NCBI GenBank assembly: GCA_030280995.1
Contig: JASXTE010000002.1
Coordinates: 40,218,183 to 40,282,182 of the forward strand
Origin: Hemileia vastatrix
Taxonomy: Eukaryota > Basidiomycota > Pucciniomycetes > Pucciniales > Zaghouaniaceae
Direction of reading: 5' to 3'
Length of the DNA stretch: 64,000 nt
The position numbers were made by a program, and so were the translations under genes. A model generated the notes under the pieces. It made no database searches, was not told the DNA's origin, and saw nothing but the letters and a program-made list of their open reading frames with translations. Positions 1 through 56,166 of this stretch are shown here, one piece after another. The number at the start of each line of letters is the position of its first letter. Within the stretch, counting starts at the first letter, position 1.

Positions 1-15
1 AAGCCCTACACCTGA

Positions 16-1240
16 AAATCAAAGGCAGGTTCAGGTCAGCTTAAAAAGGATGATTATCTCATCATAATCAACTTCCTTAAAATAAAATCAAATTTTGAAG
101 CATGTTTTGGATGTGAAAAGTCCACTCGTATTGGACGTCCACCTTCTTCAAAGGTTAATGGCTACTTGTTGATGGCCAATGAAGTAAGGAAGAAAACAAG
201 GGGGAGAATCGATATCAATCCTAAACAAATGAAGGAGAGATTTAAGAGTTACCATTCAAAATATAAAAAGACTCATCATGCTGCAAATGAAACTGGCTTT
301 GGTATTGACGATGATGATTTGGAGATTGGAATTACTACTGTTTCCGAAAAGCTCAATGTCATGTTTCCTTTCTATGAGGAAATGGATAATCTTTTTGGCT
401 CCCGAGTTGATGTAAACCCTTGGTTTCTACACGATACTACTAAGCATATACCCTCTGGATCCAAACCTTCCTATAATCTACCCAAAACACCTTTACTTGA
501 AGGAGATCAATCCCCTCCACCTTCTAACCATAGTTCAGCTGAAGATGATCCCGACTATCAAGCAGAACAATTATATCGCAGAAGATCTGAATCATCAGAG
601 GCCCAAAATTTAAATGTATGTTTACTTTTTGTTTTTTCTTCAATTCTTCTCTGAATTTCTCTTTCTTTCTAGTCTCCTCCTACTCAAACTCAATCTCCAT
701 TAAATAATCTCAATTCTGGAAATGTGAATACCACTTTAGAAGCTGCTTTAGAAGAACTTCCTGAAGCCTCTTGTTCAAACTCCAAACTAAAGCGTCGAGC
801 CTCAACTTCAATGAACTTGAACCATCTATTAAAACGTGGTAATACTTCAACAAGCTCATTTGACTCCCTTGAGGATTATTTTGAAAAAAAAGATATAAGT
901 AAGTTTTGTTTACTATATATCTTAATCATTAACTCATTTATTTATTTATTTCAATTTAATTTTCTCAGTGAAATCAACTATTGCAAATAATGCCCTTGAC
1001 TTTGAGAAGATGAAGTTTGATCATATGCTAAGGAAAGATCAGCAAGCCTTAGATTTGGAAGAAAAAAAATTTGAGGTAGAGCAGATGGAAAGAGTAAATG
1101 ACCGTCAATTTCAAAGAGAAATGGCTACTTGTGAATTGGAAAAACAAGAGAGTTTTAAAAAAAAAGATTTCATTATGGAATGTGTTAAAAATGGCCAATC
1201 TTATGAGGACATTAAAAAATTACTTGACCTTTTCAATTGA
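16..1240 (+). CDS. Myb/SANT-like DNA-binding protein, transposon-associated (5' end cut by window)
   Basis: Three exons join in frame: up to 615, 673-898 and 969-1240, with donors GTATGT (616) and GTAAGT (899). The frame is open back to position 16, so the start codon is in an upstream exon outside the window. The N-terminal part has the hallmarks of transposon-linked Myb/SANT-like proteins: a GYLLMANE helix, a basic RKKTRGR stretch, KQMKERFKSYHSKYKK, then GFGIDDDDLEIG and a FYEEMDNLFGSRVDVNP segment. The middle is Ser/Pro/Asn-rich. The last exon encodes a charged coiled coil (EEKKFEVEQMERVNDRQ..) ending in a short helix. In PIF/Harbinger elements such proteins bind element ends and help nuclear import of the transposase; that role is inferred here. 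A broken paralogue lies at 13303-14784. The gene is convergent with the oxygenase gene downstream. Confidence 0.75.
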
Positions 1241-1410
1241 TAAATTGTTTTTCTAGTTAATTTAATTTTGTTTGATTTCTTTTTGTTAATATTTTCTTAT
1301 ATGCTGACTTATAAAAGGAAACGAATATGGTACGTTATTTTTGACAAAAATTTGAATGTATAAAAAAAATTTTCTATCTTTACTTTCTAGTCAATAAGTT
1401 TGCTTATCTA

Positions 1411-1690
1411 AATTTTTCTAAGTCATCAATTTCACATGTCAAATTTAAAAAATTGGCAATGCCCTCCCCTGCATTTTATTGAAACAAGGGGTGGGTACCA
1501 CCAAATTTTTCTAAGTCATCAATTTCACATGTCAGATTTAAAAAATTGGCAATACCCTCCCCTGCATTTTATTGAAACAAGGGGTGGGTACCACCAAATT
1601 TTTCTAATTCATCAATTTCACATGTCAGATTTAAAAAATTGGCAATACCCTCCCCTGCATTTTATTGAAGTAAAGGGTGAAAGTCATCAA
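1411..1690 (+). repeat. Three tandem copies of a 93-bp repeat between convergent genes
   Basis: Copies start at 1411, 1504 and 1597 with a constant 93-bp spacing. Each contains AATTTTTCTA, a TTCACATGTC block and a C-rich GCCCTCCCCTGCATTTTATT block. Because 93 is divisible by three, an open frame crosses all copies as a 31-residue repeat, but I treat it as non-coding. A single diverged copy lies in inverted orientation at about 13175-13260, at the same place between the oxygenase and Myb/SANT genes of element copy 2. The tandem expansion is therefore specific to copy 1. The remaining sequence to 1977 is AT-rich and shows nothing else. Confidence 0.9.
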
Positions 1691-1977
1691 AATTTAATAT
1701 AATTACATAAATTAATTAATATATAAATAAGATATGTCAAATATACTACTTTTAAAGTAATGACAATTCCTTAAGCCAAAATGCAGATCAAGTCTAGAAA
1801 CTAGGTTTGGGACTTTCCACAAGTATAGGCTAGAGGAACCCCATGAAACAAATTAATGTTATCATGATTACCATTTATACAACACAAGGTCGTGGGCCCA
1901 TTACTTTAATTTCATAAATTGAAATATCATATTTATTTATTAAAAATTTATGGAAGAATATTAAATATTTGGTGACT

Positions 1978-3167
1978 CTACAAATCCCCATACTTTTTGG
2001 ATCTACCTAAATAATTTTTAAATTTATTACCTTTTTCTTCTTTTTTTAACTTGTTTATTCGTTGGATTAACTTTTGATTGATCTGGAAAGAGCAACCAAA
2101 ATGCGTGAAGTCTTGACAAGATTCCAAACCTGGAGGAGCCTTTGTGGTTTGGTGATTATCGTAAGAAGAATTCCAAACTGTTTTGATGATTCCATTTCCT
2201 AATCCAAAATCGATTATACATCTATGATCCGGGAAATATAATCCATGTCCTTTAATTTTAGCAGGTGATTGAATAGGTTGTCCAGTGATAGGATGAATAT
2301 ATGTGAAAATTCCATAAGTGAGGTAATTGACATCATTTGTGTCGGTGTGAATTCGATTATGTAATCCAGAATGAGTGATTATAACATTTGAAAACATTAG
2401 ATAATCTCTGCAAATATCTTCCCATTCAGAGTCACACCAGTTTGGTATTCCAAATCTCATAGCAACTTCATGATTTTTTTCAAAAGCTTTATTGAAGAGT
2501 TTTTTAAGTCGAAGAGCAATAAATGAATTAAATGAAGGTAAAGTATTCCATTTTCGAAAATCATTATCTAATTCAGCTTTAGATAAAGATCTGAGTAAAG
2601 AATATATGCCTATTTGAATTAAATTCAGTAAAATGATATTAAAAAATCCTGAAAAATCTTTAAACATACCAAGAGAAAAACCTTTAACAAATCCTGGTCT
2701 CCATCCAATTCCAATCATGATTCCACCCAACAAATTCTTATTCCTTAAAGATAAGCAAACGAAAGCCATTTGGTAGAGTGTTATGATGAGATCACAGAGT
2801 TGATTAAATGAATCATCTTTTAAACCATTAAAAGAATGGTTTTCGTAAATAAATTGAGGTTTGAAAGTATTATTAATAACAGCTTTAACTTCATCAGCTC
2901 CAGTTTCAGTTAAATAATGTATATTTTCAGGTAATGTTTTCAGATATTTTTTTTTCTTTCAACTTTAGTTTTATAGTACTTGATTTTTGAAATATGGCCA
3001 AATAATTGATCCAAGTGAATTTTTATTTTATAATTTCTTTTATTTCGATACTGTTCATTTTTTGACAATGTTTTAGATGATGATTGAAAAGAAGCTGAAT
3101 TTAAAGATGATAATGAAGTTGAAGATGATGAGAGTGAGGTAAGTGGTGAATCAGAAGTTAAAGTCAT
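1978..3167 (-). CDS. TET/JBP-like 2OG-Fe(II) dioxygenase, probably frameshifted
   Basis: Family members oxidise 5-methylcytosine or thymine in DNA using Fe(II), 2-oxoglutarate and O2. The C-terminal half shows the double-stranded beta-helix signatures: RIHTDTNDVN supplies the HxD iron ligands, TYGIFTYIHPITGQP and KIKGHGLYFPD follow, and THFGCSFQIN supplies the distal histidine. The N-terminus is Ser/Thr-rich (start at 3167), followed by a Lys/Tyr-rich stretch. The frame breaks at an A9 run at about 2946-2954. Downstream of it a second frame stays open from a KYLKTLPENIH segment to the stop at 1978, so one inserted or deleted A separates two otherwise intact halves. Total length is about 395 codons. 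It resembles the Tet-like oxygenases of rust fungi; enzymatic activity on DNA is not shown by sequence alone. The neighbours are the Myb/SANT gene (convergent) and the transposase gene (same strand, upstream). Confidence 0.72.
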
Positions 3168-3359
3168 GTATTTTTCTACTTAAAAATTTGTTACTTTTCA
3201 AACACCCAAAATTATACATTAAAAAAAACTCACTTAATTTAAATTAAAAAATAAAAATTCCTCAAAAGACTGATGAGAATTTTTTTATTTCACTTGAACT
3301 TAATGAATATTTTTCTCTAAAATTAAAAAAAAATCAATAAACTGTTAAATTTTTTTTAA
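3168..3359. other. AT-rich spacer upstream of the oxygenase start
   Basis: This stretch is nearly all A and T with several poly-A runs, and no coding sequence is visible. It probably contains the acceptor side of a leader intron that begins at the GTAAGT donor at 4219-4218 on the minus strand, but I could not choose the acceptor. Confidence 0.4.
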
Positions 3360-4085
3360 CACTTCCCCATTCCCCTAAATTCCCCTCTCCAAAGCCCTCT
3401 CCCACCTCCCAAAAACCCTTGGAATACCCCCCTCCACCCCCCACCAAATCCACCAAATCCCCCCTCCAAATCCCCCAAATCCCCCCTTCAAAACCACCTC
3501 CAAATCCCCTCCAAACCCCCCTCCAAATCCCCCTCCAAACCCCCCTTCAAACCCCCCTCCAAACCCCCCGCAACCCCCCCAAACACCCCCTTCAATCCAC
3601 CTCCTTTCACCCCCTCCAACCCCCCTCCAAATCCCCCTTGAAACCCCCCCAATATGTCCCTCTAAACCCCCCTAACCTCCCCTCCAACTTACTTAACGAT
3701 TCGCTAACGAATCGTTAAGTGAAGTTTAAGGGGGGGGTAGGAGGGATATGAGGGAGGATTTGGGGGAGTTTTGAGGGGGATAGGAGGGGGGGTTAGAGGC
3801 GGGTTTGGTGGGGATTTGGAGGGAGGATTTGGGGGATTTGGTGGGGGGTGGAGTGGAATGAGGGGAAGATATGAGGAGACCAAGAAGGTGGAGAAAGGGA
3901 GAGATGAGACCAAAGAGGGAGAAAAGGGAGGTTAGAGTGAGCCAAGGAGGGGGGAATAAGGCAGCCAAAGGGGGTAAAAGGGGGATGTATCCATTCCAAG
4001 GAGAGGGTAAAGGTGGGAAAAAGACCAGGCCAAGGGGGGATAAAGAGAGAAAAGAGGGAGAGAAAGAGAGAGAAAAAAAAAGGTT
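3360..4085. repeat. About 700-bp quasi-palindrome: C-rich half, perfect hairpin core, G-rich half
   Basis: The left half (3360-3685) is built of short units such as CCCCTCCAAA and CCCCCTCCAAAT, almost free of G. The right half (3725-4085) is purine-rich with units such as GGGGGAGTTTTGAGG and GGAGGGAGG, almost free of C at first. The centre is a perfect 13-bp inverted repeat, ACTTAACGATTCG at 3690-3702 and its complement at 3707-3719, with loop CTAA. One strand can therefore fold on itself over hundreds of bases. Long open frames through the tract are compositional artefacts. It lies between the oxygenase and transposase genes and has no obvious counterpart in element copy 2. Confidence 0.85.
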
Positions 4086-4109
4086 AATTTTACCTATAAA
4101 TTTAAAAAC

Positions 4110-4118
4110 AACCACTTA

Positions 4119-4158
<40 letters not shown>

Positions 4159-4185
4159 AAAAAACCAAAAAAAAAAAAAAATTAG
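4110..4185. repeat. Poly-A tract with interspersed CC
   Basis: A run of more than 30 A residues is followed by AACCAAAAAACCA and a further A run. It forms the right edge of the purine-rich half of the quasi-palindrome. Polymerase slippage and assembly collapse are likely here. Confidence 0.9.
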
Positions 4186-4219
4186 CAAAAAATTTAGTAA
4201 AAACAATAAAATGACTTAC

Positions 4220-4480
4220 CTGGAGAGATGAGTTGAGAAAAAATAAATATAAGTGAAATTGATTGAGTGATGTAGGAAGAGAGGAGAAAACGGATATGAG
4301 TGAAGAAAAAAAAGAGAGTGACTGAAAAAATATGCGTTTGCTGAAAATATGCGATTTCATGTTGAGTTGATGAAAGAAAACACAGAGAGAAAAAAAAAAG
4401 ACTTTAACAGCAAATTCAAAAACCAAAAAAATATGCAAAAAAATTTACCATTCTCAGTGAATAACACATGCAAATTGATA
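4220..4480 (-). other. Conserved leader or first-exon region ending in a splice donor
   Basis: On the minus strand this region ends in CCAGGTAAGTCATTTTATT, a consensus donor with the cut after 4220. The same donor context, preceded by a T-rich stretch with CAACATGAAATC, recurs on the plus strand at 10640-10933 in element copy 2. Conservation of a donor between two otherwise diverged copies suggests a real non-coding first exon. From its position and direction it most likely belongs to the oxygenase transcript, starting just after the 3' end of the transposase gene. Open frames here are T-rich and not convincing as protein. Confidence 0.5.
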
Positions 4481-4503
4481 ATTTGAAGAGAAAGTAAAAA
4501 AAA

Positions 4504-5763
4504 TTAAAATTGCGTTGAAAAATGTTGGAGTGTTATTGGAAGAATTTTTGCCCTTATACTAGTTGATTGAGAAATAGAAGTGTTGGATATAGTCGGAGGT
4601 GAATCAACTTGTTCATCTTCATACAGCTCTAACCATTGATCTTTGAGGTCAGCAAGTAGGTTATGAAGTATAGTGCAACACAGAATCCAGTTGATCACCG
4701 CCTCCATTTCAGATTTATTTCTAAGAGGACTTCTTAATTCCCTTAAACTAGAAAAACGGCCTTTCAAGATTCCAATAGAATGTTCAATACGGACTCTTGA
4801 CTTTGCCAAATGATTGTTGAATTTGGCATTTTGACTGTCTTCTGAAGCTGCTCCCCAAAAAGCAGGAAGTACATACTTTCCATTCACATAAGCAGAATCT
4901 GCAAGAAGATACTGATCTTCATCAAAGAATTTTTCAGGTTCATTTGAAATATGCATTCTTTGGAAGACGTAGGAGTCATGACATGAGCCAGGATAGCCAG
5001 TGAAGAATGATATAAATTTTTTGCTTACGTCACATATAAGCTGAACGTTAATTGAATATCTATAAAGAAGATATATTTGTTTGTGTTAGTTTCAAAGAGG
5101 ATGAAAGGAGTTAAAAATAATCTACCTCTTTTTACGGTCAAAGTAATTGTTTCCACCTTGAGCAGGTTTCTGGCTCAAAGGAATAGTAGTACCATCAACA
5201 AAACCAATACATCCTGGAAAGCCCTCTGCTTGCATAACCTGAGATGATTCAAGTCGCTCTTCTTTTGTTGGCCAGGTGAGCAGTTGAGATTCCAAGGAGT
5301 TGATGGCAGTGATACATCGTTTGGTATAAGTGTTAACTGAACCATACCCTAAATCAAAGACATTTTCTAAACGTTTCAAAGCGGCTCCATTACCATTTGA
5401 ACCCAAACAACATAGTGTGATGGCCAATTGAATTGAAGGATGTCGTTGTTCTTTTTGAGAATTATTGTGAAATATGGGATGATCCTGAATAAGCTCAAGC
5501 AATTTAAGGAAAAATTCCTGAGAAGTCCTGAACAGCTGTCTAAAACTGGGTGTAGATAGGTTAAGAAGTGTTTGGATGGTGTACTTGGGGGTATGAAGTA
5601 CTTGAGGCTTTCTGGGAAGAAGGTAACGTTTCCTGGCCATTTTTGATAAAACGACAAAATCTTCTTCTAGATCAGAATTGGAATCAGAGTCCAAGAGAAG
5701 TTCAAGAGCCATGAAAGTCATTGCTTTATGTAATTTATCACGATTTGAAAGTGAGGAAGGCAT
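4504..5763 (-). CDS. PIF/Harbinger-type DDE transposase
   Basis: Two exons, 5763-5126 and 5059-4504, are joined by a 66-bp GT-AG intron and give about 397 residues, the usual size for the family. The N-terminal region is helical and carries a helix-turn-helix (KRLENVFDLGYGSVNTYTKR). The catalytic triad is visible: Asp in GFVDGTTIPL near the end of exon 1, Asp in YLLADSAYVNGKY, and Glu in SRVRIEHSIGILKGRF. The TGYPGSCHDSYVFQ block is also typical. The frame is intact, so the enzyme could be active. It lies about 290 bp inside the element terminus at 6056. The last residues PITLQHF recur in the transposase fragment at 10476-10646, linking the two copies. Confidence 0.9.
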
Positions 5764-6056
5764 AACTCTTATATGATATGATATGAAGATGTAAGTGATG
5801 TACGATGTTTTGAGTTATGAAGTGTTATGCTGTGGAGTGCTGCGTATGAATGGGATGATGCTGACAAATCAGTGAAATGGGACTTGATCGTGAAATCAGC
5901 ACTTTTGGTTGAGAAAGTGCGGATTTGAGTGAAATAAGTGACTTATTTCATTTTGAAATCCACCAGTATTGGGGCTAGTGTGTTTTGGAAATCCGCACTT
6001 ATTTAAGTGCGTATTTGGTCAAATTTAAGTGCGGATTTGCCAGAACTGACACCCCC
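5764..6056 (-). repeat. Element terminus with subterminal inverted repeats
   Basis: The outermost bases on the minus strand are GGGGGTGTCAGTTCTGGC (from 6056). Inside them the 11-base word AGTGCGGATTT occurs at 5915-5925 and 6029-6039 and, inverted, as AAATCCGCACT at 5989-5999. A perfect 19-bp palindrome, GAAATAAGTGACTTATTTC, sits at 5931-5949. Such repeated subterminal words are plausible binding sites for the transposase or the Myb/SANT protein. The segment also serves as the promoter and leader of the transposase gene. Confidence 0.7.
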
Positions 6057-7134
6057 TAATAACAGGTGCTCTGATAGGTGTTATTTTGTAAGTATCATGA
6101 GATACATCTTTAATTATTTCAGCTTCTTCAATGGAAGTTAAAGATGTATCTGTATGAGGTATAGCATCATTCAGGAACATTATATCCTGTTCTAATACAA
6201 ATATCTCATTTTCATCATCACTGTAAGATATGTTACTTTTACAATCCTCACTGGATTCCATATTCTCATCTTCATGATTACTTGGCTCAGAATTCTGGGA
6301 GGTTTCAATAACATTTATTCTTTTCTTACACGTGTGACCTTTAACCCAAGGTTCATTACATTTATAACAAGTGTTATTCTCTTGTCTTTTAGGGACAAGG
6401 GGAGCTGAAGGTTTTTTCTTCTCCACTGGTAATTTACTTGTAGTAGGTTTTACCACGTCAACACTTTTCCTGTAATTAATATACTTGGTTTCATATTTGT
6501 GGTTTAATAATATTTCATTACATATATTAATGAACCCAGAGGTATCTCTGATGGTTTCAGTTCTAGCTACAATAATGTCTCTAACTGATATAGGTAACTT
6601 GTATATTATCTTTTCTTTCCACTCTTCATAATCCATTTTTGGATCCATGGCTTTCATGATTTTTATTAAATTTATTAAAAATACCATAGGTTTATCTCCA
6701 GCATTTGGATTATATCTGGCCTTTTCATACAATCTTTGTTGAGTGATTCTAAATTTTGGGCCACCAAATCGCCTTTCAATTAGTGCCTTCCATTCATTCC
6801 AGGAGTAATTAATTCCCTCACTCAATACAGATTCAAACCATAATAAGGCCACATCTGTAAATAAAGATATTAACTTTGAAGTAATTTCTTCATCAGGTAA
6901 TTTGTATGAAAATTTTAAGTTATCAATTCTTTGTATGAATTCCTGCCAATCAGATTTTGAATCTCCGTCAAAAGATGGGTACTGATCTAACTTAGGCCAG
7001 TTCTTTTGGCTAGTTTTTGCTTCCCTAACCTGAGGAATATTGAGTAATTCACTTACTTTAGAAAGATGATCATGTATTTCATCTTTTACTGATTTATTAT
7101 TCTCAGAGCCCATGATACTATGTTCATGTTCCAT
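6057..7134 (-). pseudogene. Gypsy-1 gag with zinc knuckle, interrupted at its 3' side
   Basis: The reading frame starts at 7134. It contains a gag core (WPKLDQYPSFDGD, LISLFTDVALLWFESVL, WKALIERRFGGPKF) and a retroviral-type zinc knuckle, CYKCNEPWVKGHTC. It then runs through an acidic linker to the start of the protease region and stops making sense at 6056, where the Harbinger-type element begins. The homologous segment of Gypsy-2 continues into an aspartic protease. Gag forms the particle that packages the element RNA. Confidence 0.8.
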
Positions 7135-7143
7135 AATTGGTGT

Positions 7144-8387
7144 TTAATTTGCATGTTTCATGAAAACAGGCACTCTTGCCACATAAGAAGTGTTATCTTT
7201 TATTCTTTCATTATTTTTCAACATTTTTGCTACTTCTATTTCCACTCTTTGTAACCTATCCTGTATTACTGGTACATGAGTTAGGGTGTCATTTACATTT
7301 GAAAAAGATAATTTAACACGTCCCTCAATGGTAGCCATAATATTCTGAGAGTGTTCTAATTTATTTTCTAAATATCTAATCTCAGATTTTAAGCCCTTAT
7401 TCTCATTGATTAATTCATTATTTGAATTTTCAATAATTTTTAATCTATTGGCTGTTGCACTCAATTATTGTGTTAGCTGTAATAATACCTTTTCTGTATT
7501 ATTGTTTGACTCTTTTGAGAACTCTTCCAATTTTTCAATTCTCAATAATAATTTACTTATTATCTTTAATTCCATTGGATTTTCTTTTAAAAAATATTCT
7601 ATTTTTTCTGTGTCCAACTCAGAAGACTCATCATTTGATTCCATTTTAATAGCATTATCCTGGTGATCAATAAAACTATCTACATTGTCTTTGTGCAAAG
7701 ACAAGTTTAACATATTTTTTTCAAATGAATAATCCTTTAAATCATTATCAATTATATCCAATATTTTTTTATCAATCTCATTACCTATGAGTAATTCATT
7801 GTTAGGTTGATGTAATTGTTCATAAGAAGTTGGATGACTCACCAAGGTCTTACTCCATTTCCCCTGCCTCTCCTTGGCTTTCCCCTGTAAGGGTGACTGC
7901 TGGATCCTTGTTGAGGAGGATTGTTGTAATTTTGGGCGTACCAATCCCATTTCCATTTGCTTACTGTAATTTTTTGGTCCTCCTCTTGGGCTGGAGGTGT
8001 TGCTATCGAATTGTTGGATGCCACTGTTGGTGGTTGAGTCTTTATGTCCACTAGAGCTTGGTTGACTTCTATGAAACCTTGAGCTGCTCTCTTTTCCAGA
8101 TTGTTGATCTGGTCCACTATGTTGTTGACTCTTATTGTCAAGGTGTTCATTAGGGTGGATAGGGAGTGAACTTGTTCTTGTAATGTATTTTTTGACTTCT
8201 TTATTGAAACCTGCTTTAGAAGCTTTTCCCTTTCCTCCAGAGACATTTGTGGAGGGTTGTTGATTATGGGAGAGTCCTGGCCCTCAATTTGAATGTCCTG
8301 TAACAGGTCTTTCAGCTCTAGGTCTTAAGTTATAAGGTTTTGCCTTATTACTTACAATGTCATTGTTGTCACACATTTTCACGTGGA
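7144..8387 (-). pseudogene. Gypsy-1 N-terminal gag region, coiled coil, frameshifted
   Basis: Several overlapping minus-strand frames cover this region: an N-terminus with KPYNLRPR near 8350, a coiled coil (MSLEEREKLLKQVSIKKSKN.. at 8246, LEKRAAQGFIEVNQALVDI), and further acidic and helical stretches down to 7144. Gypsy-2 shows the same pieces and the same change of frame between the KPYxLRPR start and the coiled coil. The frame change is therefore ancestral, or the family uses two overlapping frames. In-frame stops show this copy is no longer functional. Confidence 0.6.
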
Positions 8388-8966
8388 ATTTAAAGAATTT
8401 GAGAATTTAGATATAAAAACTTCAAAAAGGAGTTTTATCAGTTTTTATCAATACCACTGAAGACAATTTTATTGCATACTTATTGGTATGAAGTGAATCC
8501 TTAAGTGCCAAAAGTCAAATATGCTTTTTATGTGGTAACTTAATTTAACTGGTCTACAATATGTAGCTGTGTTTTTATATTTAAAAGAAAACAACTGTTA
8601 GTAAGATTCTCTCTAAATATTTAATGAATATTACAAACCAATAAAAAGAAAAGATTAAGAGTCCTGTTAAAAGAAAACAATTAATCAGTTTATTTGGTTT
8701 ATTATCTGCAAAAGATCACAAATTTAATTGGTCTATTGACAGACTACCACTAATAACAATTTTATGTTAAATTAGTGGTAAAATTGTTGATTCAATATCA
8801 CAATTTTATTATATAACAGGGCTTCTTTTTCTGAAATCACTATATAAGTGACCCCAACCTGTTGTAATTATCCAAATATTTCTATAGGGATATTATTTAC
8901 GTGCACCTTCTATTGAAAATTTCACTTACTGGATTATAACAGAATTCTTGAGGAAAGGCCCCCAAT
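8388..8966 (-). other. Gypsy-1 untranslated leader and primer-binding region
   Basis: No gene is visible. Directly inside the LTR edge the minus strand reads ATTGGGGGCC, the position of a primer-binding site in Ty3/Gypsy elements. The rest is AT-rich leader, conserved with 36600-37198 in Gypsy-2. Confidence 0.6.
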
Positions 8967-10469
8967 TGTCAGGCTAAGGTCAAGTACAAGGACGTGAACT
9001 AGCTTGAATAGTCAGTTGTCTAGAAGATTTTAATGGTCCTATATGAATACTGTAATGTAAATCCAATAAGTAGTAAAATATAATCAAAATTAAAGGTCTC
9101 AGTAATATAACTCTCACTAATTTTATATATGGCTTACAATATTTGTAGTTGGTAGAAAAATAGATTTTATAATTTCAGATACTATTCAAAAGTCTTATAA
9201 AAGTACTAATTGATATGTATTGTAATTTATTTGGTTATATTGGTAAATTGTAAATGATAAAGAATGCAGAAAACAAGACCAAAAACCCCCTCCTTTTATA
9301 CACACTAAGTTTCCCCAATAACCACCTTAATGTACCATCCAATACAATGTTAATAACGCCTTCAAACAAGTAATAGACCTCTCCATCAACGCCCCTAGTG
9401 ACCAATAACATAATTAAACAAACAACAACCACTAAAATCCTATTAATAATAAGGGAGATCCATCAAAATTAAAGAAAAGACAAAAAGAGAGTATATGCGT
9501 GGAAAAAAATATTATAACAAGGTGAAAGGAGACTTTTTAAGGTTAATTATAGCTTAATAATAAGGGGAATCTACAGTAGAAATGGAAGGGCTAATCCTGA
9601 CATTATACTACGTGAAATTCCCATTCAAAAATAACCAAAATTGACTGAGAAACCACCCAAAAACTTAAAAAAGAGCGTGAGATGTGGGGTAACTACATGC
9701 AGTCCTTGGCAGGCGCTTGCACGGGTAAATCCTTGACTAAAATTAGGCAAATTTAAGCGTGGTGATGAAATAAAGTGCCAAGAGTGAGGTTATTAATGAA
9801 ATTAGTGCATATAAACAAGGTCAATGCATTATTAATTAAGCTAGGACACTAAATAAGCGCCTGTCGCCTATTTTAGTGTGTTTCCCCACAGTGGGCGTAG
9901 AATGTGGGGTAATTATAGTGTGAAAAAGCTTACTTTTCTAAAAATGAAGCTATTCACATGGGAAAAAAGCAGGCAGTATGTAGTCAGTACACAGAAGCCA
10001 TTTCTGGCATAAAAAACACCAAATTTGAAAAGTGTTATTTTTATGCCTTTAAATAGCCAAATCAATAGTTCTAAATGAGCCCAATTGATCTGTCAAAGCG
10101 CAATTTTGATATTCTCAATTTTATAGCGCATATAGTCAACTTTTAAGTGAAATAAAGCGCATTTCTAGTTTTTTGTGTAAAACAATGAATATAACAGCTT
10201 TAAGTGTACTTAAAAATGATGTAGCCTTATACTTAAGGTTCTTAAGATTACCCTAACATATTCCAACTTAATATTAAGTACATAAGACTTATAAAAGGTG
10301 GATATATGCGTGTATATAAGGTGTTATAATGGCATTTTATGTGTATTATCATAATTTTACTTATGTATACTGTTTGTGTACTCTCATTTCTTGTTCACAT
10401 GTATAGTTCATGTGTTTAACATAACTTATAAACACTTTTTACTCAGTCCTGGGGATATACAGGCTGACA
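8967..10469 (-). repeat. 5' LTR of Gypsy-1 (about 1.5 kb)
   Basis: The ends read TGTCAGCCTG..CCTGACA on the minus strand. The LTR aligns along its length with those at 29581-31071 and 37199-38685 and with the split solo LTR at 40979-48060. It contains the family-specific blocks TGTGGGGTAA and AAGCGCCTG. No gene is present; the small open frame at 9235-9432 (-) is not conserved. Confidence 0.92.
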
Positions 10470-10475
10470 ACTTGG

Positions 10476-10646
10476 GTTTGGAAAACACTTTACCTTATAT
10501 GTCTTTTAAATGATCTTTATGAAGAAGAGGATTCTGAACCTGTACCAGATCTCCCCTCCCTTGAGTTACAAAACATTCTTTCCACCGGCATACACTTTGT
10601 AATTATGCCAATCACCCTCCAACATTTTGAAAAACAACCCTTTTAG
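10476..10646 (+). pseudogene. C-terminal fragment of Harbinger-type transposase
   Basis: The frame reads CLLNDLYEEEDSEPVPDLP and ends in PITLQHFEKQPF followed by a stop. The intact transposase at 4504-5763 has LLADL.., an acidic LYEDEQVDSP stretch and PITLQHFSTQF before its stop. The fragment begins within bases of the Gypsy-1 LTR edge, so the remainder of the gene should lie beyond that element, outside the window. Confidence 0.7.
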
Positions 10647-10933
10647 GTTTTTTTCATACTCTCCAAATGCTTAACTTGTGTGCTTTATTCACTTTTTTTG
10701 GTGTTTTTGTTTTTGGCATATTCATTTTTATTTTGAAATTATAGTGAATGTCTCTTTTTTGGATGTTTCATTTGTTTTCATTCACCAGCTCAACATGAAA
10801 TCACATATTTTCTGCAATTGCATAATTTTTCACTGTTTATTTTTTTCATTCATCCCTTATATCCTTTCCCTCCTCTCTTCAAACATCCCTCAAACAATTT
10901 GGTTTTGTTTATTTTCTCATCTCATTACTCCAG
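10647..10933 (+). other. Leader region matching 4220-4480, ends in splice donor
   Basis: T-rich sequence contains CAACATGAAATC and ends CTCCAGGTAAGTCATTTT, a donor after 10933. It is the inverted counterpart of the leader of copy 1. A possible acceptor is the TTTTTTATAG before 11101. Confidence 0.5.
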
Positions 10934-11130
10934 GTAAGTCATTTTATTCATTTTTTTGATCTTTTGTTTTCTACTTATAACTTTTTTGTTTCTTTTTTTC
11001 TGTTTTTTTTTTTTTGTATCTTAATTTTTTTTAAGTGGTTATTTTTGATTTTAATGGTAAAATTAACCTTTTTTTTGTCTCCCTCTTTTCTTTTTTTATA
11101 GCTCCATCACCCTACTCTGGTCAGACAAGG

Positions 11131-11350
11131 ACCTTATGACAACAAATAATTCCCAAGTAAGCAGTAGTACTGAGCTCAAGGGAGAGTAAGGTAATAGATA
11201 CCTGCAAAAGTTTTTGGTTAGCTGAGATATATTTCATAGTGGATACAGTATAGTATAGATAGTGTAGATCAGATAATACCTTATGACAACAAATAATTCC
11301 AAAGTAAGCAGTAGTACTGAGCTCAAGGGAGAGTAAGGTAATAGATACCT
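11131..11350 (+). repeat. 147-bp tandem duplication, 1.5 copies
   Basis: ACCTTATGACAACAAATAAT begins at 11131 and again at 11278. The two 73-base segments running to GATACCT (11203 and 11350) are nearly identical, including AGCAGTAGTACTGAGCTC. The spacing is 147 bp. Confidence 0.85.
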
Positions 11351-12350
11351 AGATGGCATAGGAATTAGAAAGAAATTAAATAGATGAATAAAATAACAAG
11401 ACAGGAGATGAACTTACCTTCAGAAGTTGTTGGTCAACTGAGGAAAAAGAGGTGAAGTATGATCCTATTTATCCTGAATAGTGCCAACTCCTTTTGCAGG
11501 TGTAGTAGTGTAATATGGCTAATAATTAGACTAAATTTTAATCTATGAAGTAATCAGGAGATCATACGCACATTTTTCTGAAGGATGTGATAAGAATGAG
11601 GATTTATTACAAATAGTAGTGGAAAATGGAAATGTGTAGGGAATTTAGGCAAGGATTAAAAATGATGGTGTAAATACTCCAGAAGTGAGATGAGATGGGG
11701 GAGGGAAATTGCTGCAGTTCTCACACTCTTTATCCCTCTTTGACATGGTCATTATCCCCTCTTTCCCCTATTTCAATTTTTTTGGTTCTATGTTATTAAA
11801 ACACATACATTGCACTTTCTTTATGCATTTCACTTACTCCATATTCAATTTCCCCCAAATTCCAACATCAATCTTCCTCACTCTATTTTTCCTACTATTC
11901 AATCAAAGTAAGTTTCATCTCCTTTTTTACATGCCTATATAATATCTCTTTATTTCTATGAAATTTTCAAACTTAAATATATGTAGGACTCTTATCTGGA
12001 CAACAGTGGACCTGTTAAACTCCTCTTGTTGTCATTTCCATTATCACTTTTCAAGTTTTTGTAAAATTTTGAAAACCAGAGTTGGAATCAGGGTTATGTT
12101 TATTTAAATCTAGATTTCTTTTTCACTGAAGAATCTCCTGAAGACTATATTTTGTTTTCCACAAACAGATTTGAATTTGGTTCAGTGGTTGCTGAGATAT
12201 TGATTTTTAAAGTTGAGCCTTTTTTTCCAAATTTCACTTTATTCATTTCACATTTTTATATTGCATAATTAGAGAATAAGGCTTCTGAAACTCTTATCTG
12301 ATGATTATCTAGGCTTTAAGCTCCCAAAGCTTAGCAGGATTCAATTTGTC
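11351..12350. other. Non-coding or decayed stretch before oxygenase copy 2
   Basis: This should correspond to the N-terminal half of the oxygenase gene, but I see only scattered frames. The plus-strand frame at 11709-11942 is a T-rich hydrophobic string ending at a possible GTAAGT donor and is not convincing. From about 12310 the sequence becomes recognisable as oxygenase. Confidence 0.4.
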
Positions 12351-12884
12351 TTGGTCAATCACTTGAAAAAATTATATATTTGTGCATTTCCATCCAATCA
12401 TAAACTGGCCAAGAAAGCTGGGGTTCCCAATTTGACAGATATGGAATGGGTTGAACTCACTAATGATTATATTTTTTCTTCTAATGTTATAATCACTGAT
12501 GGAAAATTTAATAACCAGATCCATGTAGACAAATCTAATTCTAATATGCTTACTTTTGGGCTTTTCTGTTATATCAGTCCTATTACTGGAAGACCAACAC
12601 CTTCACCAGCTAAAATCAAAGGCCATGGACTATACTTTCTTGAGCACAAATATATCATGGAATTTGGTTTAGGAAATGGGATTATTGAAGAGATTTGGAA
12701 TTCTTCAAGAGATAATAATCAAACTACTAAGATAACTCCTGGATTGGAATCTTGCAAAAAGTTTACTCATTTCAGATTTTCTTTCCAGATAAATCAAAGT
12801 TTGATAAAATGGGTAAGTAAAGTAAGGGGTGAAGGGTCAATGTTTAGTAAAACATTTGGGAGGGTTTTTAAATATGGTAATTAA
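12351..12884 (+). pseudogene. TET/JBP-like 2OG-Fe(II) dioxygenase, C-terminal catalytic domain only
   Basis: The open frame of 177 codons aligns with the second half of the gene at 1978-3167: AGVPNLTDMEW, FSSNVIITDGKF, then the iron-binding HxD in NQIHVDKSN, TFGLFCYISPITGRP, KIKGHGLYFLE, FGLGNGIIEEIWNSSRDN and the distal His in THFRFSFQIN. All ligand residues are kept, although roughly half the protein positions differ from copy 1. The N-terminal half is missing or decayed. An undisturbed catalytic frame in an old copy may reflect late loss of selection or continued function. Confidence 0.65.
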
Positions 12885-13174
12885 AGGATTTCTGAATTTT
12901 TATTTTTTTTCTTAAATTTAAATTTATCAGTATTAAAGATAATCAATCAACTTTAAGTATTGTACCATCAGGCCCCTGTGCTGTATAAAGGTGTTCATTC
13001 AAAGATATAATTGTATTCTATGAATGAGTTCATAATACCATTTTTGTTATATGTTTTCTTTGAATTCGGTCATATCTGAAATCATTGGAAGGTATTAGTT
13101 GGTATTCCTTTACTTTTACTTAGTTGATTATCTTTTTAATTGATTTACTTAATTATTTATGAAATTAAAATGAA

Positions 13175-13260
13175 AATTTGGTAATCCTCACCCCCTCCCA
13201 GAGTAAATTGCAGGGGGGGGTATTGCCAAATTTTCAAATAAGATGTGTAAAGTTTTTGAT
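13175..13260 (-). repeat. Inverted single copy of the 93-bp inter-gene repeat
   Basis: The plus strand reads TTGCAGGGGGGGG, TATTGCCAAATTTT, ATGTGTAAAG and GAAAAAAATTTGG. This matches the reverse complement of the repeats at 1411-1690. It lies between oxygenase copy 2 and the Myb/SANT pseudogene. Confidence 0.75.
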
Positions 13261-13302
13261 TTGAAAAAAATTTGGAATGAAATATGAATGAAATAAAAAA
13301 AA

Positions 13303-14784
13303 CTAATCATCAAACATTTTCAGAAAGCGTTCAATTTCTTCTACAGATTTATTAGCTTTAACACATTCTATCAAGAGAACTTTTTTTTTTGAACCATCTT
13401 CAAGTTGGTACTTGAGTTTTATCTGATCCAATAGGAAATTGTACTCAAGAGCCTTCTCCTCTTTCTTTATCAGGAATCTCTTCTTCTCTGAGTCTTGTGT
13501 CTTATCATCCCTGTGTAAAGAGAGCTTGTATTGTTTCTTTTGAAAATTAAGAATATCTCTTGTAACTTCAACTTTACCTAGAGTGAAAAGGAATATCAAC
13601 AAAATAAAAGAAAAGCTCACTAAATGATTAAGAGGTATTCTATCACTTACCAGCATCACATTTCTCTAAAAAATCATCAATGGAAGAAAAAGGTGTTTGG
13701 GAAAAACTATCTCTGTTTTTTTCTTTGACTGTTGAAATTCAGAGTAGTTAATGTTCTTTTCTTTTTTTGGAGGTAAAATTTTCCTCTTCATCATCAATGC
13801 TAGCTTCAGACCTGCTTGCTTGAGAATCCTGGGTTCATTCATTAGCCTTTTTAGAAATAAAAAAAAGACATCAGAAAAAAAACATGGGCACCTGATAGCA
13901 GGCGCCAATCCCTATCTTTGTCTTAACTTGATTTCAACTTAGCTGTAATTCTTTAGGAAAGACTGTGCACTGGAAAATGAGTACACTAGCTCATGCAACA
14001 TCAAATCAAATTTACTCTTAAATAAAAACTGAATATAGGGATAGGCACCTGCTAGCAGGTGCCACTTGATTTTTTGTGGTGAGAGATGTAAATAAAAAAA
14101 AATAAAACAACTAGACAAGAAATAAAAGCTCACTGGAGTAATATTGGGTTTGTTTATATTGCCATAAGGAACTATTGAAAAGATATCTTGATTGGTGGGA
14201 GTCAAAAGAGAGGAGGCTTGAGTAGAAGAGGAAGGAAAAATATTTCTTTTGACATCATGTTTTGTGGTATCATCTTCTCCATCCAACATGTTTTCAGGAT
14301 TGACATTGGCTTGCTCTCCAAATATGGAATCCATCTCTTTATATTAATGACATAAAGAATCAAGTTTTTCATCTATAGATTTGACACCCTTACTGATATC
14401 AAGATCATTAATACCAAAACCAGTGGAATATGAAAGAGTCTTAGCCTTCTTGTATTTGGCTCAATAGTGCTTGGAGCATTCAGACATCTGTTTAGGCAAA
14501 AGATCAAACCTTCCCTTTGTCTTATTTTGTAATTCATTGGCCATTAGAAGATATCCATTGAATTTTGATGCGGGGAGTGGCCCTAATTTAGTTTCATTCT
14601 CAGTACCGAAACAAGAATCATAATTAGTTTAATTTTCAGCCAGTTGATAAGTATGATATGTTCATCTTTTTTTTAGTTAAACAGTCTTTGATTTCTCACC
14701 TGAGCAGGGGAAAGAGAGAGTAATGGGATTTGAAGAGCAACTGGGGGAAGGCTGCCTTTGAGAAGATCTGTGATGATGAGGCAT
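13303..14784 (-). pseudogene. Myb/SANT-like protein gene, disrupted
   Basis: A start codon at 14784 opens a short Ser/Pro/His-rich exon ending in CAG before GTGAGA near 14700. A second exon carries KFNGYLLMANELQNKTKGR, TGFGINDLDISKG and YKEMDSIFGEQANVNPENM, all matching the gene at 16-1240. In-frame stops interrupt it within the KHY-AKYKK region and just before YKEMDSIFG. The last exon (to 13303) encodes the charged coiled-coil tail. A 180-bp palindromic-ended insertion sits at 13885-14064. It is the counterpart of the first gene of copy 1 and is divergent from the RecQ gene. Confidence 0.75.
13885..14064. mobile_element. 180-bp MITE-like insertion with self-palindromic terminal repeats
   Basis: The two ends form imperfect 30-bp terminal inverted repeats, each ending inside in ATCCCTAT/ATAGGGAT. 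Each terminal repeat is itself a palindrome: the right one contains GGCACCTGCTAGCAGGTGCC (14044-14063), a perfect 20-bp palindrome, and the left one the slightly diverged GGCACCTGATAGCAGGCGCC. No coding capacity. A target duplication is not clear. Confidence 0.65.
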
Positions 14785-15215
14785 GTTAAGATATTTGAAG
14801 ATGAAAAGGAGAAGAAACAAACCAATGAGATGGGGAGGGGTTCTGAATGGATAGAATGAATAGACAGGATGGGAGTAGTTAACTAACTGATCTTGGCTTT
14901 TGGCAGTGAAGTAAAGAAAAGGGAGCTGAAAGTATTTTTCAAAAAGCTTTAAGAGGATATATATATATATATTATATTCCTATATTTTTTAATTTTTGGT
15001 TGGCGTGGTTGTGATTGATATTGAGAATCTTTTATTGTTTATGAAAGATGGTTTTTTGGCTTTTAGGTGAGATTGCATGGGTTGATGGATGAATATTCAT
15101 TTTTGGTTTCATTGTGTGTGTACGCGTCTTTGAATTTCCATTCTGCAATTTTTAGTCTTCGTGTTTCTTTGTCTTGCAAGTAACAAGTTAATTATATTCA
15201 ATCCTTCTTCAGAAA
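14785..15215. promoter_or_regulatory. Divergent intergenic region between Myb/SANT pseudogene and RecQ copy A
   Basis: No gene is seen. The region contains a purine-rich stretch (14700-14940), a (TA)n tract at 14956-14975 and the presumed promoter and leader of the RecQ gene. The right end of element copy 2 must fall here, but I could not recognise a GGGGGTGTCA-like terminus. Confidence 0.35.
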
Positions 15216-20236
<5,021 letters not shown>

Positions 20237-29575: not shown

Positions 29576-29580
29576 GGATT

Positions 29581-31071
29581 TGACAGGCTGAGGTCAAGTA
29601 CAGAGACATGAACTAGCTTGAATGGTCATTTGTCTAGAAGATTTTAATATTCCTACATGAATACTGTAGTACAAATCCAATAAGTATTAAAATATAACTC
29701 AATATAAGGGTCTCAGTAATTTTAATCTCACTAATTATATATATGGCTTACAATCTTATAGTTGGTAGAAAAAAAGATTTAATAGATTCAGATACTATTC
29801 AAATACTTTATAAGTACTATTTATATGTATTGTAATTTTATTTTTTATATGTTTAATTGTACCAATAAAGAATGTAGAAAACAAGACCAAAAACCCCCTC
29901 CTTTATACACAATAGCTTCCCCAATGAATCCCTTGATTTACCAGCTCTATACACAGTTAATGAGGCCTCATTCCAGATAATAATTATGCCCAAAAACATA
30001 AAGAGTGACAAATAACATAATTAGAATGATATCACCCACCAAAATCCTGTAGTAATAGGGATAACCCATCAAAAATAAAGAATAAGCAAAAAAGAGAGTA
30101 TATGTGTGTTATAAATTAAAATAAAAGACTAAAAAAAAATTAAGAATAATTATTACTCAATAATAAGGGGGATTAAAAGTAGAAATGTTGGGGCTAGTCA
30201 TGACATTATAGTATGTGAAATCCCCATTTAAAAATAACCAAAATTGACCGGGAAACCACTTAAAAACCCACAAAAGGGTGTGAGATGTGGGGTAACTACA
30301 TGCAATCCTTGGAAGGCGCTTGCACAGGTAAATCCTTGACTAATTTAGGAAAATTTAAGTGTGGTAGTGAATTAAAGCACCAAGATTGAGGTTATTAATG
30401 AAATTAGTGCATATAAAGAGGGTCAATGCATTTATAATTAAGCTAGGACACTAAATAAGCGCCTGTTGCCTATTTTAGCATGTTTCCCCACAGTGGGCAT
30501 AGAATGTGGGGTAATTATAGTTTGAAAAAACTAACTTTGCTATAAATGAAGCTATTCACACGGAAGAAATGCAGGCAGTATGTGGCCAGTACACAGAAGC
30601 CATTTCTGGCATAAAAAACACCAAATTTGAAAAGTGTTATTTTTATGCATTTGAGTAGCCAAATCAATAGCTCAAATTAAGAAAAATTGATCTGTCAAAG
30701 CAAATTTTTAATATTATTTAATTTTTAGTGCATATAGTCAACTTTTAAGTGATTTAAAGCACATATCTTGTTTTTCACATAAAACAATGAAAACAACAGC
30801 TTTAAGTCTACTTAAAAATTATGTAGCCTTATATTTAAGGTTCTTAAGATTTCTCTAACATATTCAAACTTAATATTAAGTACATAATACTTATAAAAGG
30901 TGGATATATGTGTGTATATAAAGTGTTATAATGGCATATTTTGTATTTTATCATAAATTTACTTATGTATACTATTTGTGTACTCTAATTTATTGCTCCC
31001 ATGTATAGTCCATGTGTTTAACATAACTTATAAGTAATTTTTACTCATTCATGGGGATATCCAGGCTGACA
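29581..31071 (-). repeat. 3' LTR of Gypsy-2
   Basis: On the plus strand it begins TGACAGGCTGAGG and ends ATCCAGGCTGACA. It is similar to the 5' LTR but with many scattered differences, so the insertion is not recent. Confidence 0.93.
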
Positions 31072-31575
31072 CTCACCCACCCAAAAAAAACAATAAAAAA
31101 TGATAAGTTATACACTTTTTTTTATTTTATATTATTTTTCAGGTATTCAGAAAATTCTGTAGCATTAAAAATTAATTCTTTAAAGAAATAAAACATAATA
31201 AAATATTTTGAGTACTAGTTTTTTAACCCCTCAGCTGGTTGAACAGAAATTTATTTCTGTTTAAATTTTTTAAGAAGGGAGGATAGAGTTGAAATTTCTT
31301 TTTCAGGTATCCTTTATCAAATTCATTTGATTTCCCCTTAAATCTTAATAAATACTCAGTTCCTTTTTCTTTAGTAAGGATTCTTTTCTTGAGTATTTTT
31401 TCAATCTCTGCTTTTTCCACAACTTCTTCAGGTTGCTTTTTAGGCCTTCCTTTTCTTTTTGGAAATAAGTCAGGATCATTTTCAAGTTAAGGTTTCAATA
31501 ATGAGATAGGGAAAACTGGATGTTTCCTATCATATGGGGCATATAATATGACTTCCACAGCATTATTACCAACCA
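31072..31575 (-). pseudogene. Gypsy-2 C-terminal chromodomain-like tail
   Basis: After a stop, the minus-strand frame (start 31420) reads EIEKILKKRI, EYLLRFKGKSNEFDKGYL and KFQLYPPFLKNL. This is the chromodomain layout found at the end of chromovirus integrases. A chromodomain guides integration to particular chromatin. The adjacent 31430-31500 is basic (KRKGRPKK). A stop separates it from the integrase frame. Confidence 0.6.
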
Positions 31576-31594
31576 TTTTTCTCACTACAAAAAG

Positions 31595-33460
31595 TCATGC
31601 AAAGGGATCCTTCAATTTAACATTACCTTGTAAGTTAAAATGTAGTGTTGAAATTAGGACTTCATCTCCTTTTTTTAATTCAAATTCTTTATGAGATTTA
31701 TCCCACCTTTTCTTTTCATATTCAAATGCTTTTTGGATGCATTCCTCTGCATGCTTTCTATGCATTTGTTGCATATGAATAAAGGATTTAGTTTCAGGGT
31801 GTATATCTAACCTTGGTAATTTATTTAAATGATTTACTGGGGTATTTGGTACATATCCCAGCCAGAGTTCAAATGGTTTTTTATCTGTTACAGAGTAAGT
31901 TGTGCTATTATAAGCAAATTCAAGGCCAGGAATTAATGTTACCCAGTCATGTGTGAATTTCTCATTGTCTTTGTATTCTAATCCAAAGGCACAATATCTT
32001 CTGATCATATCTTCCAGAGTCTGTATGATTCTCTCAGCCAGACCATCAGTTTGTGGATGGTGTGCTGTAGATAATTTCAATTGAAAACCTGATACTTCCA
32101 TCAAAAATGTCCATAGCTCTGAAGTAAATTTAGGGTCTCTTTCAGAGATTATGGATTTGGGGAACCCAGCAGTATTTGTCATTTGAGTCCACCATAGTAC
32201 TACCAAGTCTTTTGCAGATTCCTCTTTATGGGTATTGATAAATTTACACATTTTTGTTAATCTATCTTCAATTACATAGCAAGAATTGAAACTTTCTTTT
32301 CCTGCTAATGGCAAGCCAGTGAAAAAATCCATGTTTATAATTTCCCATGGAGCTTTTGGCTGCTCTATTTGTTGTAACAACCAAGCTCTCTTCCCAGTTA
32401 ATCTTTTAGATTTCTGACAAGAGTCACATGTTTCAATGTATTTTTGTACATCTTCTTTCATGTTTATCCACCAGGCTGTATTTTTAACTCTGGTTAATGT
32501 TTTGTTAAAATCAAAATGACCAGCTAAGATGTCATCATGACAAGTACTAAACATTAACTCTTTAATAGAGGGTGGTATAGCTATTATATTACTTAGCCTT
32601 TTCCTGTAATATATATGTCCATCTTCAATTGACAATTTACCTTTTTCCAACGCATTTTTATACTTTGGAGGCAAGGTTTTAATTAATGCACTCATGGAGG
32701 CATTAGTTGGATCATTTAAAATGGTATATAATTTAGACAAATATTTATCAGATGAATAATTTTTTAGTATATTTTGCATAAATTCTTCCTCTAAATCCAA
32801 TATATAAATCCCAAAGATATGTATAGCCTCATTTTCAGGTACATATGCTGGGTTGTCAGTATCATTTGGAAAAGGGCTTCTGGATAACAAATCCACATTA
32901 GAATGCAATGTTCCCGCTCTATGAGTGATTTTCATTCTTCCTCTGTACTCTTGTACAGCTAGTTGCCATCTAAAAATGTGCCTATTAGGTGTTTTTATGT
33001 TTAGTAATGATTTTACTGCACTGCAATATGTTATTAATTCAAACTTCTGGTCCTCCAGATAGTAATGAAGTTTCTCCAAGGCCCACAAAACAGCTAAAAA
33101 TTCCATTTGTGTGGCACCATACCTTAATTCTGTCTTTCTTAAGGTTCTGGATATATAACAGATAACTACTTCAGATAATTTCCCATTTATTATCTTTTTC
33201 TTCTGTAAAGCAGCACCTAACCCTGTGAAGCTTGCATCATTATACAAGATAAAAGGGAGGTTAAAATCTGGAAGTCCCAATATTAGAGCTGAAATCAAAC
33301 ATTCCTTCAATTTATCAAAGGTGTGTTGTCTTTCATTATTCCAAATGAAAGCCTCATTTTTCCTGATTAATGTTGTTAAAGGGGCTGCAATGTATTGGTA
33401 GTTTTTTTTATACTGCCTATAATATCCACACATACCTAAAAAACTTTGAACATCTCTCAC
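31595..33460 (-). pseudogene. Gypsy-2 RNase H and integrase
   Basis: A 621-codon open frame. Near the start is the reverse transcriptase connection (QSFLGMCGYYRQY), then RNase H (LYNDASFTGLGAAL, ATQMEFLAVLWAL), the zinc-binding integrase head (HDDILAGHF..CDSCQKSK) and the integrase core with its DDE residues: Asp in IINMDFFTGLPL, Asp in SERDPKFTSELW, and Glu in GLAERIIQTLEDM. It is long and intact within itself but shifted relative to the reverse transcriptase upstream. Confidence 0.88.
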
Positions 33461-34149
33461 ATTCTTAGGTATACTAATGTTTTTATTGCTGCCACTTTGT
33501 TCTTGTCAACGCAAATTTGTAATCCAGATACAACATTTCCAAGTACTTTCAAGGATTGAAACCCAATCTTAAATTTCTTTAATGCAATTGTCATATTAAT
33601 TTCATCCATCTTTTGAAATACTTTTTTTAGGTGATTTAAATTCTCATCATATGTTTTTGAAAACACTATGATGTCATCAATATAAACTAAAAGCCATCCT
33701 TCAACCATTTACTGATGAAAAACACTATCCATAAATTTTTGTGAGACTGAAGGTGCATTCTTTGAGCCAAAAGGCACTCTCACATATATATATATCCCCA
33801 TGTGTGTGGTTATGAGTAAGAAGTTCTGAGAGTTCTTTTCCACAGGAATATGGTGGTAACCTTTGTTTCCATCTATACAGGAAATATATTTTTCTCCTTG
33901 TAAGGTAGCATGGATAGAGGCTATCCTTGGTAGAGGGTAAATATCATCTACAGTGTATGTATTCAGAGCTCTGTAATCACCACATAATCTTGCCTTATCT
34001 TTTTCATAAGAAATTAAAACTGGTGAAATAACACAATACTTAGGTGTTGTGTCCACTTTTTCAATGATACCCATTTCTAACAACATTTTAATGTTGTATT
34101 CAATTTCTTTCCTTTTTTCAGGAGAAGCTGGGTAAGGTTTATTTTTCAA
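33457..34149 (-). pseudogene. Gypsy-2 reverse transcriptase, broken frame
   Basis: Two frames, 34149-33709 and 33708-33457, hold the palm domain: CVISPVLISYEKDKARLCGDYRALN, a dinucleotide-binding IDGNKGYHHIPV block, PFGSKNAPSVSQKFMD, and the catalytic YIDD box in LLVYIDDIIVFS. A stop splits the two parts and another frame change follows before the RNase H region. Confidence 0.85.
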
Positions 34150-34188
34150 GCTGCCAGGAATATTATCCAGATCACAACTTAAAGAGAT

Positions 34189-34899
34189 TTACATCTCATG
34201 GTCTTTGACCAATCCTAGTTCATTTGAAAAATGAGCAAATGCCATAGGATAAGATTTTATCAATCTCAAAATATTGTTTTCTTCATTTTTTGAGAGTTGA
34301 GGACTGAAAGAGGCCTTTTGGATTTCATTTTCCAATTCTACCACTTCAGAGGTGGTTCTTCCACCTTGCAGTTGTTCTTCTTTTGGAGAAATGGAATAAA
34401 CTGAACTTTCAGAGCAAATCTTGAATTTTCTTTTCCCACTTACGCCTATAGTGAAGAAGCTATTTGCAGGATCCAGTTTAATGCCAAATTTTTTCAATAA
34501 GTCATTGCCAATAATAAACCAATCACTAAAATTATTATTATCCATTACCACAAATTCACACACTGCTCTTACATATCCATTATTATATTTAAAGAATAAA
34601 GGAGTTTTGTATTTTCCAATTAGATTTAATACTGAACCAAAACCCCTCCAGTTCTTTGTCTTTACAGGTTCTAGTTTTCCCTTACACTTACTATCTAGTT
34701 TCATTAAAGTTTTAATAGAAACTAAACTACCTTCAGCCCCAGTGTCAAGAATGGCATTCATTTCTTTTCCACATATAATAACAGGCACTCTAATAGGTGT
34801 TATTTTGTAAGTATCATGAGATACATCTTTAATAATTTCAGCTTCTTTAATGGAAGTCAAAGATGTATCTGTATGAGGTATTGCATCATTCAGGAACAT
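34189..34899 (-). pseudogene. Gypsy-2 aspartic protease
   Basis: The frame contains the retropepsin active site NAILDTGAEGSLV and the downstream FIIGNDLLKKFG hydrophobic motif. The equivalent point upstream of this active site is where the Harbinger-type element interrupts Gypsy-1. Confidence 0.8.

Positions 34900-52150: not shown

Positions 52151-56166
<4,016 letters not shown>

Follow-up and report, generated by a model that had tools for sequence, protein, structure and literature searches.

Two inverted, strongly diverged Harbinger-type loci carrying a Tet-like oxygenase gene in Hemileia vastatrix, a probable further example of TET+ Harbinger elements in rust fungi

This study analyzed a 64,000-nucleotide stretch of the Hemileia vastatrix genome (GenBank assembly GCA_030280995.1, contig JASXTE010000002.1, positions 40,218,183 to 40,282,182 of the forward strand; hereafter the window) that holds two loci built from the same parts in identical order, each inverted relative to the other, copy 1 at 1-6056 and copy 2 from 10470 to at least 14628. 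With a probability of roughly 0.8, both loci belong to a PIF/Harbinger-type (PHIS) lineage of the TET+ Harbinger (PHISTA) kind in which a TET/JBP-type oxygenase gene is a regular component; copy 2 would have been followed by a long terminal repeat (LTR) retroelement and then by copy 1, and the oxygenase would protect the DNA of its own element. The initial annotation had considered a TET/JBP gene within a Harbinger-type element to be a new association. That association is already in print, as fifteen families of TET+ Harbinger elements, found in six species of rust, have been described and named PHISTA (Kojima 2025, PMC12730594), the only source for the combination of TET/JBP and Harbinger (with or without SANT) found in the open-licence literature, and the present loci are a further example.

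Part-to-part matches were obtained by tblastn and blastn of the window against itself, with Pfam profiles for domains, and they confirmed the two collinear inverted copies proposed by the initial annotation. The order in both copies is third gene, repeat, Tet-like oxygenase, leader and Harbinger-type transposase, the last being represented in copy 2 by its tail only. The Tet-like 2-oxoglutarate (2OG)-Fe(II) oxygenase domain of copy 1 lies at 1978-2958 on the minus strand (PF20515, E = 2e-28, together with the alignment and reading frames), and the C-terminal two thirds of the same domain are found in copy 2 at 12273-12884 on the plus strand (PF20515, E = 8e-19, together with the alignment). 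In the self-comparison by tblastn, 1981-2958 (-) matches 12363-12881 (+) with 56% amino acid identity over 175 positions. The third gene of copy 1 (16-1240, +), whose 5' end lies beyond the window, has proposed exons at 16-612, 673-898 and 969-1240 that are open through all three, with splice sites read by eye; its counterpart in copy 2 (13303-14628, -) is a pseudogene whose N part contains two in-frame stops. The N parts match between 88-447 (+) and 14257-14628 (-) with 48% identity over 124 columns (E = 1e-34), and the C part matches 13309-13635 (-) with 28% identity (E = 3.5e-9). The homology detected in copy 2 ends at 14628, leaving the earlier placement of its end at about 14.8 kb (14784) unsupported. 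Three tandem 93-bp repeats (1410-1688) separate the convergent 3' ends of the third gene and the oxygenase in copy 1, and a single diverged repeat of this type is present in copy 2 (13139-13275; 1594-1728 vs. 13139-13275, 74%, E = 3e-13). The hairpin-forming potential of the 93-bp unit has z scores of -2.70 in copy 1, -2.06 in copy 2 and -0.41 for a shorter piece, and the hairpin is perhaps an RNA 3'-end signal.

The transposase of copy 1 (4504-5763, -) is a Harbinger-type DDE protein of 397 amino acids encoded by exons 5763-5126 and 5059-4504; it matches DDE_Tnp_4 with an E value of 3.3e-25, above the cut-off, and its acidic residues are present by eye. The transposase tail of copy 2 (10470-10646, +) is cut at 10470 by the LTR, and the match of the copy 1 transposase tail to 10512-10637 (+), with 40% identity over 42 positions (E = 5e-4), is the weakest of the copy-to-copy matches. 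Upstream of the oxygenase, both copies have a leader (4063-4546, - in copy 1; 10601-11088, + in copy 2) that consists of the transposase gene's 3' end followed by non-coding DNA in which a GTAAGT splice donor occurs in the same context. The leaders are 74% identical over 498 columns (E = 1e-75), and the homology between the copies is unbroken from the transposase 3' end through the leader. The leader is rich in T, and a match at E<=1e-5 arose in 10 of 100 mononucleotide shuffles, the longest covering 80 columns.

The DNA between leader and oxygenase has its own features in each copy. A large, imperfect, C-rich/G-rich inverted repeat lies within 3360-3860 of copy 1 (arms at 3429-3555 and 3730-3856, 73% complementary, with a short palindrome near 3692-3721 inside it); its counterpart is absent in copy 2, and it is possibly a fold-back insertion. 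Copy 2 carries a 73-bp direct repeat (11131-11203 and 11278-11350, 99% identical, 147 bp apart), which is young relative to the age of the copy.

Protein-level constraint is observed for both the oxygenase and the third gene. Between the copies, the proportions of nonsynonymous (pN) and synonymous (pS) differences in the oxygenase are 0.274 and 0.716 (pN/pS 0.38, bootstrap range 0.30-0.49, 173 codons), and those in the N part of the third gene are 0.307 and 0.833 (pN/pS 0.37, 0.27-0.49, 120 codons, two stop-bearing codons skipped). Because synonymous sites are saturated, copy 1 and copy 2 are separate, strongly diverged families of one lineage rather than near-identical copies. It is well supported by sequence comparison that the parts of each locus would form one mobile unit, since the order was kept despite this divergence, the homology from transposase 3' end to leader is unbroken and copy 1 has its breakpoint inside a retroelement; the earlier view of a mobile unit as opposed to chance neighbours is upheld on these grounds.

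The right terminus of copy 1, GGGGGTGTCA at 6047-6056 (-), is placed by the motif match and by the insertion boundary relative to the sequence from 34776 onward. The exact motif occurs once in the window; with up to one mismatch there are four matches, compared with a shuffle mean of 1.39, and 5 of 100 shuffles reach four. Homology to a relative of the adjoining retroelement starts exactly at 6057, the base after the terminus, with 184 of 194 bases identical. Copy 1 has therefore inserted into the retroelement, and GGGGGTGTCA marks a genuine end of the element. The interrupted sequence (6057-10469, -) is part of an LTR retroelement and not transposon sequence, as seen from its homology to a longer relative at 29580-38685, whose 1.49-kb LTRs are 91.6% identical and which has GGATT on both sides (by eye). 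The LTR retroelement label comes from paired LTRs and open reading frames assessed by eye, with Retrotrans_gag (E = 0.04, below the cut-off) as the sole Pfam hint. The single LTR of the fragment (8966-10469) ends at 10469, where the cut transposase gene of copy 2 directly adjoins. The simplest order of events would be copy 2 first, then the LTR retroelement into its transposase gene, then copy 1 into the retroelement; because the window does not contain the other halves, we infer this nested history rather than observe it. The possibility that the host paralogue at 52078 represents the site of copy 2 before insertion was rejected, as the homology starts only at about 15140.

Several observations weigh against the interpretation of the loci as TET+ Harbinger elements whose oxygenase acts on their own DNA. 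Within the window there is no complete copy with both ends, and the oxygenase is not seen between two matching termini: the left end of copy 1 lies outside the window, and a terminus on the third-gene side of copy 2 was not found in 14601-15200, where the closest candidates differ from TGACACCCCC at 5 positions and from GGGGGTGTCA at 3. Copy 2 is a broken element. Its oxygenase keeps the HxD motif but has asparagine in place of the downstream histidine, a residue that 6 of the 7 sequences in the alignment share; copy 1 has both HxD and this histidine (in HQTT), as expected of a TET/JBP dioxygenase of the PU type, and by analogy with TET enzymes the histidine would be the iron ligand. In copy 1, the N-terminal stretch of the oxygenase (to about 3166) is out of frame with the catalytic domain. 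Solved structures gave no sequence match to the oxygenase at E<=10, and AlphaFold models were too low in confidence to use, with a predicted local distance difference test score (pLDDT) of 36 for the oxygenase (7-sequence alignment) and 45 for the third protein (2 sequences), so that the three helices of the latter were not used as evidence. The C part of the third gene has a pN/pS of 0.57 (0.43-0.75), a value that includes about 14 aligned codons that are intronic under the proposed splice model. In addition, the four exact AAGTGCG sites of the window, all within 142 bp of the copy 1 terminus, are a count that is only mildly unusual, being reached by 4 of 100 shuffles; their concentration at a single end is the notable feature. 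Lastly, the CpG retention of copy 1 was dropped as evidence of protection by the oxygenase, because youth predicts the same CpG content and explains it equally well.

The frame change in the copy 1 oxygenase (2940-3170) is situated near a run of A and may reflect a genuine lesion, an error in the assembly or an intron that went unrecognised.

Base composition shows that transposons in the window lose CpG. Observed/expected CpG ratios are 0.07-0.23 for three retroelement stretches (0.07 for the retroelement at 29580-38685), 0.06 for copy 2 and 0.34 for copy 1, compared with 0.60-0.79 for three stretches of host genes, of which two represent the same duplicated gene. Among the copy 1 CpGs with an aligned position in copy 2, 0 of 11 were kept, vs. 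7 of 16 GpCs. The observed/expected ratios for TCG/CGA are 0.00-0.30 in the three retroelement stretches, 0.36 in copy 2, 0.91 in copy 1 and 1.10-1.36 in the three host-gene stretches; within copy 1, they are low in the transposase (0.48) and the leader (0.36). TCG hypermutation has been reported for Pucciniomycotina (discussion in Kojima 2025, PMC12730594), and young transposons of stem rust are reported to carry CG methylation (PMC8444563). The right end of copy 1 bears CpG as well: subterminal repeats AAGTGCG(G/T)ATTTG occur at 5915-6039 in both orientations with one CpG each. Allowing up to two mismatches, eight AAGTGCGKATTTG-like repeats are found in the window (shuffle mean 2.55; 0 of 100 shuffles reach eight), and five of the eight lie within 165 bp of the copy 1 terminus.

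In the proposed mechanism, the transposase would cut and join the element ends, the third protein would perhaps aid binding of the subterminal repeats, and the oxygenase would oxidise 5-methylcytosine at the promoter of its own element and at the CpG-bearing ends. Transcription and end recognition could then continue, and the element would be spared the methylation and loss of CpG by which other transposons are eroded, in line with the escape from methylation proposed for TET+ elements generally (Kojima 2025, PMC12730594). A more specific version, in which a Myb/SANT-type partner retained in a TET+ Harbinger element reads the CpG-bearing subterminal repeats (AAGTGCGKATTTG) and the oxygenase keeps these sites readable, coupling demethylation to end recognition, is speculative and decidedly unlikely. 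Somewhat unlikely, too, is a passenger oxygenase with a host role or another substrate (e.g., N6-methyladenine, thymine or RNA) that does not protect element DNA: Kojima 2025 states that other modifications cannot be excluded as the substrate of this oxygenase type, and the substrate is predicted here from sequence, whereas the constraint within the element and the strong CpG loss of the transposons in the window make 5-methylcytosine the obvious substrate. The CpG-holding copy 1 and copy 2, with its damaged oxygenase and almost no CpG, offer a natural comparison.

The lineage assignment depends partly on the third protein. The initial annotation named it a Myb/SANT protein; the gene itself is shared by both copies, whereas the label has its basis in copy 1 only. 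The protein has a weak Myb/SANT-like stretch at residues 48-100, a charged helical stretch at the C-terminus and a match to PF13837 (Myb_DNA-bind_4) at 18.1-19.4 bits (E = 0.0014-0.0037), under the Pfam cut-off of 27; the third gene of copy 2 gave no Myb/SANT profile match in Pfam, and none of 1343 candidates was a homologue of the third gene at E<=1e-3. A Myb/SANT identity is no more than possible. This weak match, a flank compatible with a TWA duplication as TAA, and a transposase whose identity to the closest named rust proteins is only 54-55% would fit a distinct TET+ lineage, of Nuwa type or classical Harbinger type, having a Myb/SANT gene and a 3-bp duplication and falling outside PHISTA. 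We consider this doubtful, as the profile match is below the cut-off and absent in copy 2, and the flank TAATAAC of copy 1, the only flank in the window, fits TA and TAA duplications alike. The tree neighbours also oppose it. The closest transposases belong to Puccinia coronata (54% identity) and P. striiformis (55%), with P. graminis transposases at 42-49% identity (the best among the matches listed), and in a tree built from 47 selected database proteins plus the window protein, whose rows carry no PHISTA labels, seven Puccinia rows form the sister group of the window protein (support 100/99), followed by six rows of Austropuccinia and one of Phakopsora. Puccinia and Austropuccinia are the genera in which TET+ Harbinger families were found (Kojima 2025, PMC12730594). 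Of the five oxygenase homologues, both named ones are from Austropuccinia; these affinities, together with the TCG/CGA depletion of the transposons, point to a rust fungus as host. No oxygenase relatives were found in viral contigs, nor in plasmids with copy 2 as the query.

Highly improbable is mere co-residence, in which a module of oxygenase and third gene and an independent Harbinger element inserted close together and the pair was then copied once as a segment: both termini are seen in neither copy, TET/JBP genes are reported to pass between transposon superfamilies (Kojima 2025, PMC12730594) and a one-mismatch GGGGGTGTCA match lies between transposase and oxygenase at 3639-3648 (-), but order and selection were kept despite synonymous saturation, and copy 1 interrupts a younger retroelement, with a breakpoint that falls cleanly at its terminus, which an old segmental copy would not produce. 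The match at 3639-3648 is within chance and lies in a C-rich tract that copy 2 lacks at this place; it is taken as a chance match. For the terminus that the initial annotation had named as a possible separator of the two genes, there is accordingly no exact second GGGGGTGTCA, only this one-mismatch site.

Elsewhere in the window, a helicase-like host gene (RecQ-like by eye) is present in two copies (16736-18923 and 53688-55860) with 78% identical DNA and a diverged upstream part (15140-16120 and 52078-53029). These gene copies are CpG-rich relative to the transposons. A poly(A)-polymerase-like host gene is located at 49775-50968 (PF22600, E = 1e-21).

Among known systems, the Kyakuja, Dileera and Zisupton (KDZ) elements, which reportedly were linked to TET/JBP genes by Iyer et al. 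in 2014, share with the present loci the state of a fungal DNA transposon with a TET/JBP gene; their transposase is unrelated, and 8-bp duplications are made by Zisupton and by the Dileera element Zisupton-1_PGr. PHIS groups are defined by target duplication and coding capacity, with TWA for PIF/Harbinger, CWG for NuwaI and TNA for NuwaII (Han et al. 2015, PMC4482050). The present loci share with PIF/Harbinger and Nuwa a transposase, short termini (mostly starting with GG in NuwaII) and perhaps a Myb/SANT-type second gene (a weak match here), and differ from them in the oxygenase, which the excerpts of that paper do not mention for these groups. With PHISTA, the loci share the Harbinger-type DDE transposase, the PF20515/TET-JBP oxygenase, a third protein, an A/T target and relatives in its host genera Puccinia and Austropuccinia. 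PHISTA is described as having TA duplications and a third protein without a Myb/SANT domain (Kojima 2025, PMC12730594), compared by description with the single flank and the weak Myb/SANT match found here; if the third protein does belong to the Myb/SANT type, the published account of TET+ Harbinger elements as lacking this domain needs revision. From raw sequence, and independently of the consensus method of Kojima, the two loci support the view that the oxygenase remains together with the transposase and the third gene beyond synonymous saturation.

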